Positions 4,113 through 38,813 of a DNA stretch of 64,000 nucleotides are shown in pieces. Below the pieces are notes generated by a model. The model worked only from the letters and a program-made list of their open reading frames with translations. It was not told where the DNA came from and did not search any database. The position numbers and the translations under genes were made by a program. The first letter of the stretch is position 1. Every line of letters begins with the position of its first letter. Source of the stretch: Lachnospiraceae bacterium MD329 (GTDB lineage: Bacteria; Bacillota; Clostridia; UBA1381); NCBI GenBank assembly GCA_010206265.1, contig VIQV01000001.1:124001-188000 (forward strand), written 5' to 3'.

Positions 4113-7100
4113 TTATTCATAATCCTGATATTCAAGTGTTATATTGTCAAAATAATATTCCATCTTATTTGATGTGTTTTCTCTTTTATCCATATAAACA
4201 TTAAAATACAGGTTATCTAAATTAATACCTGTCGGGTAATTAGGATTACTGCCGCCGTCAGGTTTTGCTATATCAAACGGCTTTTTATTAAGTATTTCCA
4301 TATTATTATCACGGTTATACAGCGTTGTGGTTATTGTCTTGTTTACCAAATCAATATCGGCAGTAATTCTGTACCACTTGTTTGCCATCTGACTGTTTTT
4401 ATTAAACTGAGTGTTATCGCCGTTTATACGTCCGTTTGCGGCAGAGAACATATTCATCTGACCCCAGCCCGTATGAACTCCCCAACGCACAAACCGAGTC
4501 TGGTCTGCCGCGTCATTTCCTGCATTTGACGTGCTTGTCGCAAGGTCAAAATATGAATAGTCTGACGGCATATACTCTACATTTTCCAGAAGAAAATCAA
4601 AACTCATTCTTATTGTTTTTGTATTGTTAAGCGTTGTATTCTCTTGGAGCATATTTTTTAAATCAAAGCTTACACCAACATTTTTTCTGACAGTTTTATT
4701 TTCATCTTTTGTAAGTCTGTAAACTGTATTGCCTTCTTGGATGTTTGCAGTTTCACCGCCTGTCGCAGTATACATCGAGGCAGTAAATCCATCTGCTTCT
4801 GTTATTGCAGGAGTTATTGTGTCAAAATCCGTATTGGTAACAGTAATTGTACTCATTTTCCGAATGGATACATTATAATTAATAATATCCCCAATTCCTC
4901 CGCTTATGGTTTCAGGTTTTGTAATTATATTATACTCCGTATTTTGTGCAGTTGGGTATATTGTATATTCTCCAATTGGAATATTTTCCATAGCATATTC
5001 AGCTGATGTTTCACCCTCTGCTATCGTTACATTTTCCGTCTTGATTACTGCATCTCCTTTTTTCAGCTCAAGATTTACAGTCTGCGCACTGTCACTCGCC
5101 TTAGCCATTGAAACTGTTCCGCTTACTGTAAATACATTCTCTATATTATTTGTTGCAGAGATATTAAATTCAATTGATTTCTCCGCGCCTATTGCCTTAT
5201 TGTCAGCTTTTCTCACATATAATTTAACAGTCGCCTGAATATCATTTTCTCCGTAAGCAGGACGTATCAGGGAAAGTTTTGTTTTATCTTCACTTACGTT
5301 GGCAAACGGACTGTTGCTTTCCCAGTAAAACTCATATCCGTTTGGAGCTGACGGAAGTGCAACATCATTTGTATTGCCATCACTTGTATCAATTGTTGTC
5401 GTATCAAGAATACTGTTCACTTCATTATATTCATCACTTATATTGGCAGGGTCCCAGCCGTCTGTGCCCTTTGTAAAGGTATACGGATTATAACGGAGCA
5501 TTGTCCACTCGTTAAGCATTGTTCCCTTTGTACGCTTTGTTGTATTTACAGCATTACCGTTTTCATCAACACTTCCATATTCCTTAAAACGCGCCTCCTC
5601 AGGCTTAATACCCATTTCGCTCCACCCAACGTCTTTTATCAGAAGTTTTGACGGTTCAAACGGGCTATGGCTTATAACCGTATTAATATATGCCGCCGCG
5701 GCATTTTCCCTGCTCCAAGGTCTGCCAAAATCACCTTCCTTGGCGTACGGTGTACCTGTAATTCTGCAGTTATAAAATAAATATCCGTCCGACTCCGCAG
5801 GATTTGACGGAGCAGTTATAGTTGCAGATTCTCCGCCCTTGCCTGCGTTTGTGATAAGCTCACATTCATTAAAAACCGCTGTTGAACTGCCGCAGATATA
5901 GTCTGTAGTACCGCCGAGCTTACAATTTTTAAAGTAAATCCTACCGCTGTTAATACCTATTGTATCCTGAGTTGAAATAACCTCACAATTTATAATCTTC
6001 ACCTTATCCGCAGATGAATGAAGAGCGGCTGAACGCTCTCTTGGACTTGAAGTAACACCTTTATAATCAATAGCCGTTCTTGTCTGCAAATATTCATTTA
6101 TTTTATCGTCACTAACATTATTCGCTATCTGCTCTTTAATCCATTCAAGCCTGTGGAAATTACTGTTGTTCTGGTCAGGGTCAACTCCCGTTATATCTGT
6201 AAGTTCCTCCTGCGTATAATATCTGTTATACGAATTTTCAAGCGTAATGTTTTCCGCAGTAAAACAATTTCCGTTTCTGTCAACTTTTAAAGCTGTTCCC
6301 CAGTCCGAAGGACGATATGATTTTCCGTCGCCAACAGCATTAACATCATAGTATCCGTTTTCATTACAGCTGTCATACAATGAACCCATACCGTAGTACC
6401 ACGTAATCTTTGCCTCACCGACAGTATCTGCCTTTTTTCTAATTGTAATATACGGTTTATTTACAACAACCTGCTCACGGTATACACCGGGCATAAGGTC
6501 AATATATACTCGTTCATTCTCGTTTGACGGAGTTCTTGCCGCTGAAAGAGCCTCACTGACTGTATTGTATTTTGTGTCACCGATATACGCACCTTTTAAT
6601 GACGGGTCAGCCGTCGGTGAAATTGTCGGCTCTATAGTCGGAACTGCTGTAGGTATAGGCTCATTGGTTGATAACGGTATCGTCACATCATATATTTTTG
6701 CCAATGGTTTCATAGTATCAAGAGAATCCCATACGAATATTTTTACAGTTCTGTTGTCAGGATTATCAAAAGCAATATATTTCTCACCGTTTCCGTTAAT
6801 ATCTTCACATTTAAACTGCGTTAATACACCGCTCTTATCATACGCTGACACAATAAGCTTTGCACCGATATTTTCACCTTCATATTTAACATTAAGCCTT
6901 CCGTCATTGCCGAATACCGCAGATTTTATCGTATAAGAATACTTTGGATTGTCCGGCGTAACGTTTTTCTTATATTTTGCTGTAATGTCATTTGCATTGC
7001 CCAGATATTTATCATCATTTGCATATGGATTTCTATAGTATAGAATATATATTTTATGTATTCCTGAAATACCGTCTATGTTCTTTAAATTCAGCTCATT

Positions 7101-10100
7101 ATCCCCTGTCGTTATAAGCTGATTTGCGATTTCTGCGCCTGAAGGTATATCTACGGTTACCGATACATATGTATCATTTTTTCTTACCTTTGACATTTTA
7201 AGTATCAGAGAATCTAAATCATCAAAATCAAATTCATTCACCGCATAACCTATCTTTACATTCTCTCGGTTATAGATATATCCGACGTCCACGCCATTTC
7301 CGTCAATCTTAGGCAATGAACCGTTATCTGACGCATAAAATTCAGTTGTGTCCGCCGCTTTGTATGTCTTTATCTCTTCAACGGTGTTTGAACCAAAGTT
7401 GGTAATAGTATATGTATTTCCCTCTTCAGCCGAAAAAGTAAGCATATTATTATCGTTAAATTTCGTTTCTATCCTATCTCCATTTTCATCATAAACAACA
7501 GCAAATGCCGTATACGGACTTCTTATGTTCATATCGCCGTTTGCTCTTGCGTGAATTTTTGCTTCCAACGGCTTATTATTCTCCCACGTTATATCCACAG
7601 TGGCATTCTCACGCGTGTTAATTCCCTTGATTGAACCTGCAGCCCATTTATCAGGGAGAGCAGGAAGTAAATCAATAGCATTGTCGTGACTCTGTACAAG
7701 CATTTCAATTATACCTGAAGTTGCTCCGTAATTGCCGTCAATTTGAAAATTTGGGTGCTGGTCAAACAGGTTAGGCGAGGTTCTTGTCGTAAGCAGTTGT
7801 TCAAGCATAGTTGACGCCGCATTACCGTCAAGCGCTCTTGCATTCAAATTAATTCTCCAAGCAAGACCCCAGCCCTGACCGCTGCCCGTACCCCTTGCCG
7901 ATACAGACTTCTGAAACGCTTTGAATATATCCTGTTCGTGCTTATCTGCGCTGTATGCGCTTAAATGTGTTCCGGGGAATATCTCCCACAAGCTTGAACA
8001 GTGTCTGTGACCTGTATTGTTTCCCGCACCGTGGTCATAAACTGTTGATGTTTCATTATTTTTAAAGGGATTAGTTATTGTCCATTTTATTTTGCTTGAA
8101 TCTGTTGTCGACGAAATATCAAATGTAACATCTCCGCGAGTCCATTCCTTAATCAATCCTGCGTCGTCAATTAAATTCGGCGCTAACCTTCCTTCCGTAT
8201 CAGCAAGATAACTCGACGGCATTTGTTCTGAAATTTTATCTAACAGTTCTTGATTTTCTGCGTTTTTACCAAGAATTTCCGACGCCTGCTGTACCGTATC
8301 ATAAAGATTTCTTATAAGCTGTGTGTCCATAGCGGGACCAGGCTGAACTCCCCCTTGTTCAGGCGAGCACGACGCTGCTGTTATAAGATATCCAGTCTGA
8401 GGGTCCGTAACAAGAAATTGTGTGAAAAACTTTGCCGCACCTATCATATACGGATAAACTTCTGCAAGATATTCCTTATCCTTATTAAATTTGTAATACT
8501 GCCACGCGTGGTCTAAAAGCCACACACCACCGGTAGGCCATAAGCCTGCAGTTGCATTATCAATAGGCTGAGTACCTCTCCATAAATCATAATTATGGTG
8601 CATTACCCACGGATCACCTTTTATGTATGTATTATCACCGCGTTCATTATATACACCGTACTGATTAGCCGCTGTAATTGCTCCGCTTTCAGCAAGTTCC
8701 GCAAAAGTATCAATAAACGGTCTTTCGCTGTCACCTATATTTAACGGTTGAGCAGCCCAATAATTCATTTCCGTATTAATATTTATAGTATATTTTCCGT
8801 TCCACGAGGCAGAAAATGCTGCGTTCCATTTTCCTGTAAGATTTAGAGGCTGACTTTTTGGAATATCAATTTCATCTGCTCCCGTCGCTTTTCTGCCATC
8901 TCTTGAACCGCTTAAAATCAAATATTTGCCATAGTTAAACTCCAGCGCGGCCAATTCGTTATCACCCTTTGAATAGGTTGAATAAACTCCGTTTTTATTT
9001 GCGTCTGACGTCCTTGAACCTGCGCCCGTCAAAAAGCCCGATTGACCGTTTATATCCTCACGTACACGCTTTTCCGTTGGAGTATTGCTGTAATCCGCAC
9101 CATTTTCATTTTCAAGATGAATTTCTGTTTTGTTAAATTGTGTACTGAAATCAGTTATATGACGCTCTTTTATTGTCTGATAATCTTTATTCTTGACATT
9201 TGTCATATAAATATCACAATCACGCGTTGGCTTAGAGTTATCAAGATTTAAATAATCTACATAATTTGTTGCGCCAACAACATAAATCTCTGCTGACTTA
9301 CCGCCGTTTACTGTAACAGTCTTATTATCAGAAACTGAAAATGCGCCTTCTCCCCTGAGAAGCATACGCGCCTCAAATTTGATTGCATTTACTGTTCCCG
9401 GTTCGTTATTGTCTTTACTTCCGTTTGTAATAGCAGCTGTAACCTTTACTTCACTGTCACTTATCTTCTCATAACTGTAGAAACCGTCCTTTTCACTGTG
9501 ATATGTATGAAGTTCTGCCGAAAAATCAAGATTTTCGTCCGATTCAATATGTGTTACAACAACCTGATCCGGATAACTCGCAAAGCTTTCACGTTTATAA
9601 TGATGTCCGTTATAATCATATTCAACAGTAACTATTCCTGTTTTCATATCCAGACTTTTTGTATAGTTTTCCGCGTTTGCATTCCGATGATGAAAATCAA
9701 GATAGACCTCCGCAAACGATTTATACGCTCTTTGCTTTGTCGGAGAACCAAGAAAAGTTGCCTCAACCATTTTCTCCAAGTCCCAGCGTCCCTGAACTGC
9801 CTCATATGTTTTTGCATTGCTTATATTAAGTGATTGATTGGAAAGACTTTTATTTGCAAAATCAGGATATTGTGTTCTGAAAGCCCCGTCACCGACTGTC
9901 ACGTCAGCAGCGCCTATCTCGGCAGGATTGCCGTTTTCATCTGCGCCCCTGAAATACCTCCAGCCTCCTTCAACACTGCCGCTTGTTGGGCTCTGTGCAG
10001 TTATTTTATCTGCCTCGCTTGTCTGTTTAACTGTTGTGAGCGTATTTCCGTTTTCATCTTTTAAAGTACCGTACGGAGAACCGTCCCACGCGGTATCTTC

Positions 10101-31045: not shown

Positions 31046-32815
31046 ATGAAAAAACAAATTATTGGGGCAGGTCTTGTATTAACCGCACTTTTATCCACGA
31101 ACGCGCTTGCGGATGGCAACATAACGGTGACCTTTGACGGTCAGGCAATAGCCTTTGATACTCAGCCGCAGCTTGTAGAGGGCAGCGTAATGGTGCCTAT
31201 GCGGAAAATTTTTGAAACAGTAGGCGCAAAGGTAAATTGGGACAGCGAAACAAAAACAGTTACCGCCGTAAAAAACGCTCAGTATGTAAAGTTCAGCGCT
31301 GACAATGCCACTATGGAGCTTGGCGTATGCAAGGACGGCAAAGACACGGGAGAAACACTATATTATGCCGACACTCTCCTTGACAGCGCGCCGTTAATTA
31401 AGAACGGTTCAATGCTTGTTCCCGCGCGCGCCGTTTCCGAGGCATTTTACTATGACGTCAATTGGAACGCCGAAAATAACCGCGTGGAAATAACAACTCC
31501 CGATAACGACGAGGGCTGGATTTATTATTCAAGCTGGACTGACGGCGGACATATGTACAAGATTGACACAAACGGTCAGAACAGACAAATATTATCTGAA
31601 AACGACTGTTATTCGGAAGGCTATTACCCACTTGTACATAACGACGGCTATATTTATTATTCAATGCGCGGTGAAAATGAAGGCTGTCTTTACAGAATTA
31701 AAACCGACGGTACAGGTGAGGAAAAACTAACGAATATGCCTGTAGAACTCATATACGATTTTGAATTGGACACTCGTTCATCATTTACTGGCGACTGTAT
31801 TTATTTCTTCGCACCAAAAAAGGACAGCCGCAAATATACTGTTCCTTTATACAAACTCAATGTTAACACAAAAGAGCTTACACAGCTTATTGATAAAGAG
31901 ATACCCTCATACAGCATACGAAAATACGGCGAATATATTTATTTCCAGTATAACGACGACAGAATAGCATATTATCGCATAGACGCTGACGGTGAAATTA
32001 TTAAGGTTCTTGATAATATACTTATACGCAATTTTTCAATCGGAAACGACAGATTAAGCTTTATAAATGAACGCGACGGCAAAAGATACACAGCTGCTCT
32101 TGACGGTTCGGATTTACAAGAAGTAGCGGAAGACAAGACCGAAGATGAATTTATGGAGAACTATGACGGAGTTATGGAGAAATACGATGATTTCTTTATA
32201 GCATATCGCTTTATAGAAGATAAAGATTCAGATGGACATTATATAAGCTCTATGGAATATTATGTAGTTGATAATGACTGCAAGGAATTGTTTAAAATAT
32301 CGCCGCCCGAAAATGCCGATATATATTATGGGATAGAACATCGCGGCAATAAAATATATTATTCATTAGCCCCTAAAATAAACTATCAGTCAAAAAAGAT
32401 TTACGTTGACAGCATTGACGAGCTTTTGGGTATGGAATTTATAAGCGTAAGCGCTGAAAAAGTTGACGGAAAATTCGAAATCCAAACAAATAAACGTGAA
32501 CAGATAAAAAGTGATTTTGAAAGCGAAGTTCACTGTATAGATTTAGACACAAATACAGATGTCGTTATTTTAAAAGGTTATTACCTTATAGGTGTTATGG
32601 ATGACGAAGAAAAGCTGTATTTAGGCAAAGAAACATCGGACGGCAAATATGAATACTATATGTCAGATTTAAACGGAAACAATATTGAGCCTCAGTCGAA
32701 AGCAGCAGAAATTCTCTTCTCAGATATGGTAAATGTAAATGAACAGGCTAAATACGGAATCGTTGTGAAAAGTAATGGTAAAACACAGGGCTATCCAAAC
32801 TATAATCAATACTGA
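31046..32815 (+). CDS. Secreted stalk-domain protein with DUF5050-type beta-propeller
   Basis: 589 residues. Signal peptide (about 1-22) starting M-K-K-Q-I-I-G-A-G-L. A stalk domain (PF07833) at about 25-150 with V-P-M-R-K-I-F-E-T-V-G-A-K-V-N-W and V-P-A-R-A-V-S-E-A-F-Y-Y-D-V-N-W. From about 155 on, repeats of the form G-W-I-Y-Y-S ... M-Y-K-I-D-T-N-G-Q-N and G-Y-I-Y-Y-S ... L-Y-R-I-K-T-D-G-T-G are DUF5050 blades, as in secreted clostridial propellers. No anchor is visible apart from the stalk. Function unknown; possibly ligand sensing or adhesion at the surface. GGGAGG site; last gene of the kdgK operon, ending at a strong terminator. Confidence 0.85.
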   Translation: MKKQIIGAGLVLTALLSTNALADGNITVTFDGQAIAFDTQPQLVEGSVMVPMRKIFETVGAKVNWDSETKTVTAVKNAQYVKFSADNATMELGVCKDGKDTGETLYYADTLLDSAPLIKNGSMLVPARAVSEAFYYDVNWNAENNRVEITTPDNDEGWIYYSSWTDGGHMYKIDTNGQNRQILSENDCYSEGYYPLVHNDGYIYYSMRGENEGCLYRIKTDGTGEEKLTNMPVELIYDFELDTRSSFTGDCIYFFAPKKDSRKYTVPLYKLNVNTKELTQLIDKEIPSYSIRKYGEYIYFQYNDDRIAYYRIDADGEIIKVLDNILIRNFSIGNDRLSFINERDGKRYTAALDGSDLQEVAEDKTEDEFMENYDGVMEKYDDFFIAYRFIEDKDSDGHYISSMEYYVVDNDCKELFKISPPENADIYYGIEHRGNKIYYSLAPKINYQSKKIYVDSIDELLGMEFISVSAEKVDGKFEIQTNKREQIKSDFESEVHCIDLDTNTDVVILKGYYLIGVMDDEEKLYLGKETSDGKYEYYMSDLNGNNIEPQSKAAEILFSDMVNVNEQAKYGIVVKSNGKTQGYPNYNQY

Positions 32816-32891: not shown

Positions 32892-34121
32892 CTAAAATTC
32901 CATTTCCCTGCCTTGTTTTTTCCATTCCATAAACTCGGCGGTTGCGGCAAAAAGTACATCTGCCGATGAATTTATTGCAGTTTCAAAAGAATCCTGCACA
33001 ACTCCAATAATAAATCCAATTGCCACAACCTGCATTGCAACGTCATTGCCTATATTAAACAATGAACACGCCATTGGTATTAAAAGCAATGAACCGCCTG
33101 CAACTCCCGACGAGCCGCAAGCCGCGAGAGTCGCTAAGACGCTTAATATCAGTGCAGTAAATATATCGACCTGCACACCCATTGTATGTGCCGCTGCAAG
33201 AGTCATTACAGTTATTGTAATAGCCGCTCCGTCCATATTTATCGTTGCTCCGAGAGGAATTGATACGGAATACATATCCCTGTCAAGACCGAGTTTTTCA
33301 CATAAAGCCATATTGATTGGAATATTTGCGGCTGAACTCCGTGTAAAAAAAGCTGTAAGCCCGCTTTCCTTAAAGCATTTTAACACAAGCGGATACGGAT
33401 TTCTTCTCAGGCATATTGCCACTATCAGCGGGTCAACAATCAGAGCAACCGCAAGCATACAGCCAACCAGAACTAAAAGCAGATGTCCGTAGTCTGTAAA
33501 TATACCTATGCCGTTTTCCGACACAGAAGTAAATACAAGTCCCATTATTCCGAATGGAGCAAGATTTATCACCCAACGCACAGTTTTTGTGACTGCCTCG
33601 GAAATATCGCCTAAAACCTTTTTGGTACTTTCTCGTGCAAGCTGTTTTAACGCTACTCCAAACACAACCGCCCACATAAGTATTCCTATATAGTTTGCCT
33701 CTGACAGTGATTTTATCGGATTGGAAACCATATTTAAAAGCAATGCTTTTAATATCTCCCCTACACCGCTTGGCGCAACGGAATCGGTCTGCGCAACCTC
33801 AGTAAGCGTTAGAGTTATCGGAAAAATCTTACTCACCGTTACCGCTACAATTGCGGCAAACAGTGTGCTCAGCACATATAAAATTATAACAGTCCGGAAT
33901 CTTCTTCCTATCCCCCCTGCTGCGTTCGCCAAAGAGCTTATAACAAGAACAAATACAAGTATCGGCGCAATCGCTTTCAGCGCTCCGACAAATATATCCC
34001 CAAGCATAGACAACACAACCCAATCAGTACGCACAATTCCTATTACAGCTCCTATTATAATTCCTGCTAAAATTCTCAATATAAGATTTGTTTCAGTGTA
34101 TTTTTTTATAATTCTTTTCAT
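32892..34121 (-). CDS. sstT: Serine/threonine:Na+ symporter
   Basis: 409 residues from ATG 34121, which has AAAGGA upstream; a reading from 34220 adds a non-family N-terminus. Dicarboxylate/amino acid:cation symporter fold with A-F-F-T-R-S-S-A-A-N-I-P-I-N-M (HP1 serine-rich loop), P-L-G-A-T-I-N-M-D-G-A-A (TM7, Na+ site) and A-C-G-S-S-G-V-A-G-G-S (HP2). These match SstT, which imports serine and threonine with sodium. The full length is as expected. It diverges from the riboswitch-controlled surface gene; no promoter could be assigned with confidence. Confidence 0.92.
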   Translation of the reverse strand: MKRIIKKYTETNLILRILAGIIIGAVIGIVRTDWVVLSMLGDIFVGALKAIAPILVFVLVISSLANAAGGIGRRFRTVIILYVLSTLFAAIVAVTVSKIFPITLTLTEVAQTDSVAPSGVGEILKALLLNMVSNPIKSLSEANYIGILMWAVVFGVALKQLARESTKKVLGDISEAVTKTVRWVINLAPFGIMGLVFTSVSENGIGIFTDYGHLLLVLVGCMLAVALIVDPLIVAICLRRNPYPLVLKCFKESGLTAFFTRSSAANIPINMALCEKLGLDRDMYSVSIPLGATINMDGAAITITVMTLAAAHTMGVQVDIFTALILSVLATLAACGSSGVAGGSLLLIPMACSLFNIGNDVAMQVVAIGFIIGVVQDSFETAINSSADVLFAATAEFMEWKKQGREMEF

Positions 34122-34241
34122 AACTGTTTGTTTCCTTTCTTCATATAATAAATAATTACTCCCTATGTTTATAATTCCTTCTTCCATTGTTGTTTTATAC
34201 ATTGCCGTTTGTTTAATCATCTCAAACTAAAAAACGCGTAT

Positions 34242-34270
34242 TTGACTTTAAAGGAAATTTATGCTAATAT
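34242..34270 (+). promoter_or_regulatory. Promoter of the cobalamin-riboswitch transcript
   Basis: TTGACT (34242-34247), 17 bases, TAATAT (34265-34270) with an extended -10 TG at 34262-34263. Transcript start near 34277. Confidence 0.75.
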
Positions 34271-34299
34271 ATAGACTGTACAATTAAATATTCACACAA

Positions 34300-34500
34300 T
34301 GTGTCGATTGTACCGTATGGGTGCAATCGGTGAAAAGGGAATCGGGTGCAAATCCCGAACGATAACTGTCGCTGTGTGCGCCGAATGTTTTTATGCCCGT
34401 CGGTGAAAACCGGTCATTGGGAAACTGAGAAGGCAGGGTATAAAAATGCTGAACATCTGTTCTATATGGCGTAAGTCAAAAGACCTGCATTGATGTTATT
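34300..34500 (+). promoter_or_regulatory. Cobalamin (B12) riboswitch aptamer
   Basis: The conserved order is present: GGTGCAA and AAGGGAA (around 34320-34341), GGTGCAAATCC (34345-34355), ACTGTCGC (about 34366), the GGTCATTGGGAA and GAAGGC segment (34410-34433), and the B12 box AAGTCAAAAGACCTGC (34473-34488). This is the Rfam Cobalamin architecture. The 540 bases between the divergent sstT and the surface-protein ATG consist of the promoter, this aptamer and the expression platform. Confidence 0.9.
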
Positions 34501-34584
34501 CCGTAAGTGCTTATGCATAGGAATAGCAGTTTTGTCCGCATTTTTAGAGGCGTTTTGTCAGTGTGCGGATAATTTGTGAAATAG

Positions 34585-34633
34585 CACAGGAACACTCAGC
34601 TGTGACAACAAAAAAGTTGTTGCGGCTTTTTTT
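34585..34633 (+). terminator. Riboswitch expression platform: terminator with competing antiterminator
   Basis: The terminator stem pairs 34599-34609 with 34616-34626 (11 bp, three G-U pairs, AAAAAA loop) and is followed by seven T (34627-34633), ending 28 bases before the ATG. Its 5' arm base-pairs alternatively as CACAG (34585-34589) with CTGTG (34600-34604), an exclusive structure that would prevent termination. This implies control by premature transcription termination. Confidence 0.75.
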
Positions 34634-34661
34634 ATTTGCCGTGACAAAAGGAGGACATATT

Positions 34662-37600
34662 ATGAAAAAACAATTCAACAACAAAAAACTGCTGTCTATA
34701 ATGCTTATACTCAGCCTTATGCTTAGTGTGCTTTCTCAAAGCATATCAGCGGCAGACAGCCCGTATCTAATCTCAGATGCTGAAGATTTAAAAAACTTCC
34801 GCGATTTGGTAAACGCAGAGGCGTCCAGTACGCTTTCTGTCAGACTGACAGCCGACATTGACCTTAACAGCGAAGAATGGATTCCCATTTATCCTGCGTC
34901 AGGCTATGCTACAGAGGCATTTGCAGGAACATTTGACGGCGACGGACATACGATAAGCGGACTTTCTATAAATTCCGATAAGTCTAATCAAGGCTTGTTC
35001 GGACTTATAAACGGCGCGGAAATCAAAAATCTGAACGTTTGCGGCAATGTCACATCTTCAAATAACTATGTAGGCGGAATTGTCGGTAAAATACAGCAAG
35101 GAACCGTTTCAAACTGTAGTTTTTCAGGCAGTGTAACTACCACAAAAATCGGAGGCTACGCAGGTGGTATCTCAGGCTATGCAGGAAATGGAGTATCACA
35201 AACCGCCTCAATTTCAGGCTGTTCAAACAATGCCGATGTAAACGGCGGCGTTACAGGCGGTATCGCTGGCTATGCAAAATTTTCAGCCATTACTGACTGT
35301 TATAATACAGGTTCAGTTACAGGCAGCGGTCACACAGGCGGTATTGTAGGACAGATTATGAATAACACTATTCTTGAAAACTGTTACAGCGCTGCTGAAA
35401 TTACAGGCGATGCAAATACAGGCGGTATTGCAGGGTGGAACGGTGTGACAGACGGTATAAGAAACTGTTACTGGACCCAACCCGACGACTGCTGTAAAGG
35501 CGGTACAGGAACTGCAGACGCAAATTGCTCTCAAATCACCTCGCCAGACGGATTAAAAGATAAGCTCGGCAACGCATTTTCAGAAGATATCAGCAATATA
35601 AATAACGGCTATCCCATACTTAACTGGCAGTCAGGTTCTATCGCAGAAAAAGACCCAAAAATATCAATTACGGGAAACTCATCTATTTATATGACAAACA
35701 GCGGTGTTACTCCCTCATTAATGCTTACAGTACAATACACCGATATGGACGAAACTCCAATTGAATGGTTATCTGACAGCGATATTATAACACTCGAACA
35801 GCCTGCCGACGCTGACGAAAACAACAGTGTCATTATTGTAAATGCTGTCAGTGCAGGTACAGCAACAATTACTGCCTCAACAATCAATGGCGAGTACACA
35901 GCAGAACACAAAATTTCTGTAATGCCGTTTATAACAACTGTTGAAATAAGCGGTCAGGCTGCTAAAGGGCAAACAGTTTATGCAAAAGTAAATATACTCG
36001 GCGGCGAAGAATACGACTATGACAATTATCCCGAATTAAGTTTTCAGTGGCGTTATCTCACAGAAGAGGATTACAGCGCAGGCAATACCGGCTCTGACTA
36101 CTACAAGGACATTGCAGTCGGACGTTCTTTGGCAATACCTGACAATCTGGTAGGTGATTATCTTTCGTTTTCTGTTCTGTACAACGGTGAGTATATAACC
36201 GCAAGACCGGTTAAAATTGCTGAAGATGTAACTGTTCCTGATGACGAAAAGGACAAGGAACATCTCACGCAATTAAATGATATGGTTGCCGCTCTCGGAA
36301 GTTATTATAAAATCACGCCTGTATTTGGTACAGATACAAATGTAATTGATATTCTTACATCTGACCTTACAGCAAAACAGGCTGATTTAAATGGTGTTGA
36401 TATATCCGTCAAATCCGTAAATGAGATTTACGGCGGCGCAGGTGTAGACAACGGCGGAAACATTACATATTTCTACGCCGACCCAAACACTTCTCCTTCA
36501 ATTAAAATGGGCAGCTATAACGTTACCTTCACGCTTACGCTCGACAATGTTTCGGTAGATTTGGAGGTTCCCGTAATAATCTACTGGGACGCAGACAAAG
36601 TCAGATCTGTTATGAAATCAGAAATTCTTGATAATGTAACAGATAACAGTATTCTGAACGGAAATACGTCAATTGAAAAAGTAACTGAAAATCTTACTCT
36701 TCCAAAGGTAATTGACAACAAAAAGTGGACGCAGATTTCTTGGAGCTCGTCAGATGAAAATATTATCGCTGTAAGCAGCAAAAATCAGTCTGATTCCGAT
36801 ACTCTGTTTAATCCTTATATCGCCGTTGTTAAACGCGGCGCAGAGGATAAGCAGGTTACTCTGACGGCAAAATTCACGTTTATGCTAACAAACGACATAA
36901 ATGGCACAGAAAAGCCCATAACTATGAATAAGGCTTTTGTTGTAACTGTTAAAGCGGCAGGCAGTGAACAGATTGAGGCTCAGATTGCCGAACTTATGAA
37001 AAAACTGGACAAGGGCTTTGAAAAATCAGGTCTTACCGACGCAGTAACAGGCGATTGTCTTGAAAACAACAATAATGTATATACGGCATACAACGACATC
37101 TCCTTCCCTACTACGCGTGATTTTGAAGTAGACGGAAAATACTATCCTGTAACAATTACAAGCAGTAACCCATCTGTTATTAAAGCTCCCGACGTAAACA
37201 ATGCCGCGCGCGTTGAAGTATATCGTCCTGCAGCAGGCAAAGAAAATGCGTCGGGTGTCGTAAGCGTTACAATTACTGATACAGCCGCTAATATCTCAGC
37301 AGTAAAGTCATTCAACATATCGGTTCCGGCTCTTACCCAAGAAGAAATTAACAGAGAAAAAGAGTTAATGTCAAAAGTAAAATCAGCGTACTTTGACGGA
37401 ATAAAAGGCAAAAATACAGAATGCGGAAACATCACCGAAAATCTTTTACCTTTCTTTGAGGTATATGAAGAAAACGGCGGTCTTGTCTGGGTACGAAACA
37501 ATGCTGACAAAGTAAATCACGGCATTGTACCCGTACCGTTAAACGGCTGGGAAGAGCTTGAAGCGTGGCGTCTGTTTAAATCAAGTAACCCTGCGGCGGT

Positions 37601-38813
37601 GAATCACGAGAATTTACTTGTATCGTTGCAGAAAAATGCCAAATCAGTCACAATAAACAGTGCATTGTCAAGCGAAACTCTCGGTAAATACGGTGAACTA
37701 TACAAACTTGACCCTGACACATATGCAGACTATGCCGACCTTGCAGACCTGTATTATCAGGAAGTAAATGCCGACCTTGTAGTACGCGGAAAATCAACTC
37801 CCGTAAATACAAAGCCGTTTGCTGTTGAAGAAAAAATCAATGTTTCCTTCCGACTGCAAAGCAGCAATAAAACTCTTATTCCCGATATAAGCTATAAAAA
37901 TATTGATGAAACCACCAACGTTTTTGATATATTTAAAAAAGCATTGTCCGAAAACGGATATTCATATGACAACAAAGGAAGTTACGTTTACTCAATCACT
38001 ACGCCTGACGGAACCACAATAAAAGAACTGGATGAAGGTGAAAATTCAGGCTGGCTGTATAAGGTTAACGGAAAAATGCCTGAAGTGAATATGGGAGCCT
38101 GCGGTTTAAAAGACGGTGATGAAATAGTTGTGTTTTTCACAAAAGATTACACTGAAGAAAACGGACATTCACCTTCACGCGGCGGCGGTTCATCTAAAAA
38201 CGAAAAACCGCTTGAAACATCAAAACCCGAAGATAGCAAACCCATAGCCACAGACACCCCTGAAAAAAAATCCGAATACACTGATATTTCAGGTCACTGG
38301 GCGGAAACGGCAATAGAGTATATCTGCCAAAAAGGCTTAATGCAGGGTGTCGGCAATAATTGCTTTGCACCTGACGCTCCTCTCACACGAGCTATGTTTG
38401 TAACCGTCTTATACAGAATTGAAAATGAACCCGAAACAAAAGCACCGAAATTTACTGATATTGAAAACGGTTCGTGGTATGAAAATGCCATTGGCTGGGC
38501 AAATGAAAACAATATTGTGTATGGCATATCCGATACAGAATTTGCCCCGAATATGAATATCACCCGTGAACAAATGGCTGCAATATTATATCGTTACGCA
38601 CAAATCAAGGGATATGACAATTCTAATAATGTCAGCATAAACTACACTGACGCAGACACTATTTCAGAATATTCTTTAAATGCCGTAACATGGACTTCGA
38701 CACACTCCATAATGACAGGCAATGAAAAAAGCGAATTTGTCCCACGTAAAAACGCAACAAGAGCTGAAACAGCGTCAGTTATTATGAGAATGATTGAAAA
38801 TTTAAATTTATAA
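34662..38813 (+). CDS. B12-riboswitch-controlled SLH surface protein with DUF4430 (transcobalamin-like) domain
   Basis: 1,383 residues from ATG 34662 with GGAGG 7 bases upstream; a longer reading from 34563 would run through the terminator. Signal peptide (about 1-30). GLUG-type repeats (about 86-270: G-T-F-D-G-D-G-H-T-I-S-G-L, V-G-G-I-V-G, T-G-G-I-A-G). Ig-like and atrophied-Ig modules (about 330-900, for example W-S-S-S-D-E-N-I-I). A unique stretch (about 905-1075). Then DUF4430 (about 1085-1163): N-V-F-D-I-F-K-K-A-L ... G-W-L-Y-K-V-N-G-K, the domain shared with the C-terminal beta domain of intrinsic factor and transcobalamin. Three SLH repeats (about 1205-1383) anchor it to the wall. The alpha/alpha-barrel half of eukaryotic B12 carriers is not recognised. 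Low B12 should switch it on; inferred role is surface capture of cobalamin. No B12 transporter genes are adjacent. Confidence 0.85.
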   Translation: MKKQFNNKKLLSIMLILSLMLSVLSQSISAADSPYLISDAEDLKNFRDLVNAEASSTLSVRLTADIDLNSEEWIPIYPASGYATEAFAGTFDGDGHTISGLSINSDKSNQGLFGLINGAEIKNLNVCGNVTSSNNYVGGIVGKIQQGTVSNCSFSGSVTTTKIGGYAGGISGYAGNGVSQTASISGCSNNADVNGGVTGGIAGYAKFSAITDCYNTGSVTGSGHTGGIVGQIMNNTILENCYSAAEITGDANTGGIAGWNGVTDGIRNCYWTQPDDCCKGGTGTADANCSQITSPDGLKDKLGNAFSEDISNINNGYPILNWQSGSIAEKDPKISITGNSSIYMTNSGVTPSLMLTVQYTDMDETPIEWLSDSDIITLEQPADADENNSVIIVNAVSAGTATITASTINGEYTAEHKISVMPFITTVEISGQAAKGQTVYAKVNILGGEEYDYDNYPELSFQWRYLTEEDYSAGNTGSDYYKDIAVGRSLAIPDNLVGDYLSFSVLYNGEYITARPVKIAEDVTVPDDEKDKEHLTQLNDMVAALGSYYKITPVFGTDTNVIDILTSDLTAKQADLNGVDISVKSVNEIYGGAGVDNGGNITYFYADPNTSPSIKMGSYNVTFTLTLDNVSVDLEVPVIIYWDADKVRSVMKSEILDNVTDNSILNGNTSIEKVTENLTLPKVIDNKKWTQISWSSSDENIIAVSSKNQSDSDTLFNPYIAVVKRGAEDKQVTLTAKFTFMLTNDINGTEKPITMNKAFVVTVKAAGSEQIEAQIAELMKKLDKGFEKSGLTDAVTGDCLENNNNVYTAYNDISFPTTRDFEVDGKYYPVTITSSNPSVIKAPDVNNAARVEVYRPAAGKENASGVVSVTITDTAANISAVKSFNISVPALTQEEINREKELMSKVKSAYFDGIKGKNTECGNITENLLPFFEVYEENGGLVWVRNNADKVNHGIVPVPLNGWEELEAWRLFKSSNPAAVNHENLLVSLQKNAKSVTINSALSSETLGKYGELYKLDPDTYADYADLADLYYQEVNADLVVRGKSTPVNTKPFAVEEKINVSFRLQSSNKTLIPDISYKNIDETTNVFDIFKKALSENGYSYDNKGSYVYSITTPDGTTIKELDEGENSGWLYKVNGKMPEVNMGACGLKDGDEIVVFFTKDYTEENGHSPSRGGGSSKNEKPLETSKPEDSKPIATDTPEKKSEYTDISGHWAETAIEYICQKGLMQGVGNNCFAPDAPLTRAMFVTVLYRIENEPETKAPKFTDIENGSWYENAIGWANENNIVYGISDTEFAPNMNITREQMAAILYRYAQIKGYDNSNNVSINYTDADTISEYSLNAVTWTSTHSIMTGNEKSEFVPRKNATRAETASVIMRMIENLNL

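Follow-up and report, generated by a model that had tools for sequence, protein, structure and literature searches.

At positions 34242-38813 of the 64,000-nucleotide stretch of Lachnospiraceae bacterium MD329 that was analysed here (the window), a cobalamin riboswitch stands ahead of a gene for a large surface protein with a DUF4430 domain. We propose, with a probability of roughly 0.8, that cobalamin represses this gene and that its product is an S-layer-anchored protein for capturing B12, in an uncultured Clostridia bacterium of the gut that is predicted to be auxotrophic for the vitamin. The switch, the terminator, the domain fold, the anchor, the importer family, the lack of alternatives in the assembly (as searched) and the linkage across genomes were computed, and we infer that the protein binds cobalamin. 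The locus is built as follows:

34242..34270 (+), promoter-like site, TTGACT-17-TAATAT with an extended -10 TG (consensus match only)
34282..34506 (+), Cobalamin riboswitch aptamer RF00174 (covariance match, 63.3 bits, E 2.7e-13)
34598..34637 (+), intrinsic terminator of the expression platform (12-pair stem at 34598-34627, T-rich tail)
34650..34655 (+), Shine-Dalgarno-like GGAGGA (sequence)
34662..38813 (+), gene for the SLH-anchored DUF4430 surface protein, 1383 residues (open reading frame, Pfam)
34662..34751 (+), Sec-type signal peptide, residues 1-30 (by eye from the sequence)
34755..35630 (+), GLUG-containing N-terminal region, residues 32-323 (Pfam Glug at 133-159)
36429..37820 (+), immunoglobulin (Ig)-like or atrophied-Ig string, residues 590-1053 (sub-threshold aBig_2, model)
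37821..38177 (+), DUF4430 domain with a predicted transcobalamin beta-domain fold, residues 1054-1172 (Pfam, predicted structure)
38277..38810 (+), three SLH repeats, cell-wall anchor, residues 1206-1383 (Pfam, 113 bits)

Riboswitch leader and domain architecture

The RF00174 match spans the entire model (1-189) and lies above the gathering score of 31.5 bits. It is the sole Rfam match at gathering score within the window, and the 2.74 Mb assembly, 90.8% complete, yielded no second RF00174 match. The motif AGTCAAAAGACCTGC at 34474-34488 resembles the B12 box. An earlier note, made from the letters of this stretch, had claimed a complete B12 aptamer and proposed the Rfam Cobalamin model as a check. 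The aptamer was confirmed, but it ends near 34506 and not at 34640, the end of the range 34277-34640 that the note had proposed for the search; the terminator lies in the rest of the leader. The terminator stem is followed by TTTTTTATTT, and the stability of the hairpin alone has a z of -4.6 against shuffles. Located between the aptamer and the start, it could switch the downstream gene. A terminator was found at the same place in all ten orthologue leaders examined; among 200 mononucleotide shuffles per leader, an equally good one arose in none for the ten orthologues and in one for the window. Cobalamin riboswitches usually act in the OFF direction, and the leader anatomy suggests this direction here.

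The extended -10 promoter of the earlier note is present 11 bases 5' of the aptamer; such matches are not rare here (5 seen, 2.0 expected in shuffles), and the site in itself is a weak pointer. A longer open reading frame begins within the leader at GTG 34563. The gene likely starts at ATG 34662, behind the GGAGGA, giving the product of 1383 residues.

The signal peptide has no lipobox cysteine (by eye) and, together with the three SLH repeats, marks an SLH-anchored surface protein; the SLH region also matches the S-layer protein Sap. PDB entry 3n6z matches the GLUG-containing region, residues 32-323, with an E of 6.1e-10. Signal peptide, SLH repeats and GLUG had all been called correctly from the letters, as had DUF4430 at about 1085-1163, for which Pfam PF14478 gives a core at 1086-1160 (42.2 bits, cut-off 23.8). 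The domain contains an invariant SGW at residues 1129-1131. As for the suggested Ig-like modules, aBig_2 at residues 667-764 scores 21.6 bits, below its cut-off of 27, and exceeds the threshold in the orthologues L073, L100 and L103. The predicted model of the Ig-like string resembles S-layer Ig and cadherin strings. Over residues 590-1172 the model shows beta sandwiches, with about 910-1055 poorly predicted (many blocks at pLDDT, the per-residue confidence score, of 30-60). PADLOC gave no match, and plasmid records gave none to a 316-residue query comprising the mid region and DUF4430.

Predicted structural kinship to animal B12 carriers

The 119-residue DUF4430 segment is predicted with high confidence to fold like the transcobalamin beta domain, a check that the earlier note had itself proposed. 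The predicted domain is ubiquitin-like and of the transcobalamin, intrinsic factor and haptocorrin kind, and its best structural matches are B12 carriers. TCN proteins carry DUF4430 at the C terminus (PMC4350170). The related small domain in PDB entry 3u7z bears only the title 'putative metal-binding protein'.

In the animal carriers an alpha barrel precedes the beta domain in the same chain. The possibility that such a barrel is concealed within the window protein was rejected, as the alpha-barrel profile A2 finds none, even with filters removed; in this the earlier note was right. A2 was built from 14 barrels, with 5 of 19 alpha-barrel stretches left out, and it finds squalene-hopene cyclases (E 6e-13, over part of the profile length) and other alpha/alpha toroids. 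The kinship of these bacterial barrels to the carriers would thus be one of fold class only. In a DUF4430 tree, midpoint rooted and having no support values, the window type falls near L093 and L084, both with an alpha barrel, which we regard as a hint only. At L093 the barrel and DUF4430 share one chain, encoded at 6339-9026 (-). The DUF4430 set A1 left out four of 45 stretches (shorter than 76 residues) and the near-duplicate L078.

The window protein further differs from the animal carriers in being bacterial, S-layer anchored, riboswitch controlled and about 1000 residues longer, and in a sequence too distant for a profile match to their PDB chains.

Predicted importer in the same genome and linkage across genomes

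The genome encodes MetH. MetE, the corrin-ring enzyme CbiC and Peripla_BP_2 proteins (the family of BtuF) were not found in the assembly, and by gene content the bacterium appears to require B12 while being incapable of its synthesis. An operon on contig C23, directly 3' of trmB (recognised by eye), holds the genes for an alpha/alpha-barrel protein with an SLH anchor, a DUF4430 protein of the membrane (anchor assigned by eye), EcfT and a fused EcfA-EcfA'-S protein of an energy-coupling factor (ECF) transporter. The barrel protein is encoded at L007:10091-11677 (-), and its barrel has Prenyltrans and SQHop_cyclase_C matches slightly under the Pfam cut-offs. A profile of ten hand-chosen S domains (A6, our own included) matches 6fnp_A with an E of 3.8e-13, and next 4hzu_S at 0.015. 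A CbrT-homologous S component, EcfT and two ATPase domains are all present. The structure 6FNP is ECF-CbrT of Lactobacillus delbrueckii, a biochemically proven cobalamin importer whose cbrT gene lies in an nrdJ-cbrS-cbrT-pduO cluster (PMC5997447). Compared with that system, the S component here matches CbrT in type but is fused to both ATPases, and three further proteins come with it: an SLH alpha-barrel protein, a DUF4430 protein of the membrane and, encoded separately, the S-layer protein under riboswitch control.

In the family, 54 of 70 genomes have RF00174, 39 have DUF4430 and 33 have both. At 29 of 62 riboswitch sites a DUF4430 gene follows in the same orientation, no more than 15 kb away; these sites are spread over 27 of the 33 genomes and 10 genera, and a rough estimate of chance pairing is about 0.007 per site. 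Both features are present but unpaired in G005, G009, G029, G033, G059 and G066, partly at contig ends. Among 99 genomes drawn from the class, own family excluded, pairs occur in at least 28 of the 34 genomes with both, and the control orientations give 2 sites, each among the matches listed. Within the family, DUF4430 and CbrT-like S proteins occur in 39 genomes each and share 37, whereas DUF4430 (39) and CbiC (28) share only 2; a weak match in G019 (E 9.2e-4) was left out of this co-occurrence count. Fisher p-values for co-occurrence are inflated because the genomes are related.

Eleven named orthologue loci (L097-L107) come from uncultured Clostridia, Oscillospiraceae, Ruminococcus, a Lawsonibacter and Candidatus Pseudoscilispira; L097-L100 are the same contigs as the family genomes G023, G028, G004 and G018 and are not independent of the family count. 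The riboswitch lies upstream in ten of the eleven, and the remaining locus, L101, is a 3.5 kb contig that starts inside the gene. The recurrence of the riboswitch-SLH-DUF4430 pairing that the earlier note had asked about is thus seen in the family, in the class and in these orthologues. Across 28 riboswitch-linked loci the common unit comprises a large SLH-DUF4430 protein, an alpha-barrel protein, a small DUF4430 protein, EcfT and EcfA-A'-S. At ten of the 28, a single SLH protein carries an alpha-barrel match (some partial) and then DUF4430, the same order as in transcobalamin. The riboswitch-led SLH proteins at L069:1889-5608 (+) and L074:736-4443 (+) have one alpha-barrel match and three consecutive DUF4430 domains.

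At L100:11681-12648 (+), two genes come after the window orthologue in the same orientation, one for a 148-residue DUF4430 lipoprotein (lipobox by eye) and one for a 172-residue protein, whose sole PDB match to E 1 is 6fnp_A. The same lipoprotein and S pair is present in convergent orientation at L097:5205-6218 (-) and L098:11683-12651 (-); no match to the 172-residue type of S protein was found in our own genome. In G012 (L083:429-4681 (-)), a trmB-like homologue comes after the SLH-DUF4430 gene led by the riboswitch, and in our own genome (L007:10091-12345 (-)) a trmB-like gene precedes the barrel-ECF operon. Because the trmB-like gene adjoins both, the gene order suggests that the two own loci may derive from one ancestral operon that was later split.

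Of the 33 unpaired riboswitches, downstream genes were read by eye at 20, and these are mostly corrin-synthesis, CbiQ/CbiO-like or binding-protein genes (Pfam was used for L013 and L016). The downstream gene is EcfT-like at L017; at L025 a surface-protein start is truncated by the contig end, and the contig also stops at L033. In several CbiC-encoding genomes of the genus, the riboswitch precedes a gene for a short protein, and a binding-protein gene comes next (L013:3-1543 (-), L016:910-1338 (-)). For the short protein, a NEAT match is below threshold in L016 (E 0.027) and absent in L013, where the second protein is Peripla_BP_2; the short protein is possibly a NEAT-like corrinoid surface protein.

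This linkage bears on another function for the window protein, namely that its GLUG and Ig-like modules bind polysaccharide, peptide, host or neighbouring cells, with DUF4430 merely structural and the riboswitch tying adhesion to B12 status. Most of the chain does consist of such modules, the conservation of residues 905-1053 or so among orthologues equals or exceeds that of DUF4430, the related 3u7z is titled as a putative metal-binding protein, and some DUF4430 genomes have no RF00174. We nevertheless consider an adhesion role improbable: DUF4430 is the common element of differently built riboswitch-linked proteins in the ten family genera and at least 28 sampled genomes outside, DUF4430 proteins often adjoin CbrT-type importers, and the top structural matches are B12 carriers.

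Upstream in the window, the product of the gene at 31046-32815 (+) contains a Cu_amine_oxidN1 domain and also matches DUF5050; a divergent SDF-family symporter gene (32892-34220 (-)) lies between that gene and the riboswitch gene. The Cu_amine_oxidN1/DUF5050 protein has no apparent B12 connection.

A proposed route for B12 at the cell surface

Based on these data, we propose the following route for B12 capture. When cobalamin is scarce, the aptamer would be empty, no terminator would form and the gene would be transcribed. Upon the binding of cobalamin, transcription would halt at 34627-34637. The exported protein would be held at the wall by its SLH repeats and would display the beta domain, as the first cobalamin contact, on the Ig-like stalk. 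The alpha/alpha-barrel partner and the membrane-anchored DUF4430 protein would enclose or receive the vitamin, which would be passed to the CbrT-type ECF importer and then used by MetH. We suggest the relay to a barrel partner encoded at the second locus tentatively, at slightly less than even odds. Isolated human transcobalamin beta binds cyanocobalamin, the alpha and beta domains join only with cobalamin, and the halves on separate chains assemble in a cobalamin-dependent manner (PMC5599065). Cobalamin binds beta first and alpha then closes, and some organisms are said to possess the beta domain alone (PMC11107200). Since our genome has an SLH alpha-barrel protein beside a CbrT-type importer and the human halves join from separate chains, a partner in trans would be, by analogy, a simpler idea than a replacement within the chain. 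The GLUG modules, Ig-like modules or residues 905-1075, named in the earlier note as substitutes for the barrel, have less support, given the separate SLH alpha/alpha-barrel protein in the same genome.

One form of such a replacement is a stand-alone trap, in which the stretch 905-1053 closes over cobalamin with no partner in trans. This stretch is highly conserved and lies immediately before the beta domain, at the position of the alpha barrel in other riboswitch-linked proteins. However, the model of 590-1172 gives beta-sandwich strings with low confidence at 905-1053 (pLDDT of 30-60 in many blocks), a Big_2 domain (724-800) takes this place ahead of DUF4430 in L083, a more distant relative, and an alpha-barrel partner is encoded in the same genome, making the trap unlikely. 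As for the ligand, it might be a cobalamin precursor or another corrinoid, or B12 stolen from host carriers, instead of free cobalamin: CbrT also transports cobinamide (PMC5997447), transcobalamin beta binds cobinamide (PMC5599065), and BtuG2 of Bacteroides takes B12 off intrinsic factor (PMC6143338). We regard this as rather unlikely; it overlaps with capture of cobalamin rather than displacing it, and the tests run do not separate the ligands.

Several points weigh against the capture of cobalamin by the window protein. The DUF4430 profiles find no transcobalamin, intrinsic factor or haptocorrin chain in the PDB (A1 to E 1, A4 to E 10), nor does A2 (to E 10). An attempt to prove the kinship from sequence profiles failed in this way, and the kinship of the beta domain is therefore drawn from structure. 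A ubiquitin-like fold is no proof of a ligand, the window protein has no alpha barrel by A2, and a lone beta domain is a weaker binder than an alpha-beta sandwich. The presumed partner operon sits on a different contig and has no RF00174 beside it (within 5 kb, at a low threshold), so co-regulation of the two loci would be hypothetical. The absences from the assembly are provisional because of its 90.8% completeness. In the family, no match to RF00174 was found in six of the 39 genomes with DUF4430, and CbiC and DUF4430 occur together, exceptionally, in G005 and G014; among 14 control genomes two have DUF4430 and eight RF00174, with no overlap. The protein next to the L100 orthologue matches CbrT only weakly (E 0.0025), and less well with a three-row profile (0.014). 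The case for a capture role is indirect; the surface cobalamin capture put forward in the earlier note is supported by the Rfam match, the predicted fold and the genome context.

The role proposed here is that of BtuG and BtuH, the surface-exposed or surface-linked B12 binders of Bacteroides; BtuG is a beta-propeller lipoprotein working with BtuB (PMC6143338, PMC8941943). Unlike BtuG, the window protein has no lipobox cysteine and carries an SLH anchor and a transcobalamin-type domain. An annotation in use reads 'Additional lipoprotein component of putative cobalamin ECF transporter', and that paper does not state that this lipoprotein is a DUF4430 protein (PMC9963975). In the open-access literature searched, we recognised no paper on DUF4430 proteins of the S-layer or under riboswitch control, nor on bacterial carriers with split alpha and beta halves. 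DUF4430 in TCN proteins and the lipoprotein annotation are thus already known, and the riboswitch-controlled S-layer DUF4430 protein is apparently new.

More broadly, and with the odds against it, Clostridia may use bacterial transcobalamins, whose alpha-barrel and beta (DUF4430) halves, in some species fused and in others divided between S-layer and membrane proteins, would clamp cobalamin at the cell surface in a ligand-dependent manner and feed a CbrT-type ECF importer, often under riboswitch control. The window protein would then be a detached beta half on an S-layer stalk, and the animal carriers may have arisen from this design or have a common ancestor with it. Little is known of B12 capture at the surface of Gram-positive gut bacteria. 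The locus provides a concrete and widespread candidate that combines the predicted fold of the human carriers, a B12 switch and a proven importer family, in loci found mostly in genomes with no corrin-synthesis marker CbiC, and it bears on the competition for B12 in the gut and on the origin of animal B12 carriers.

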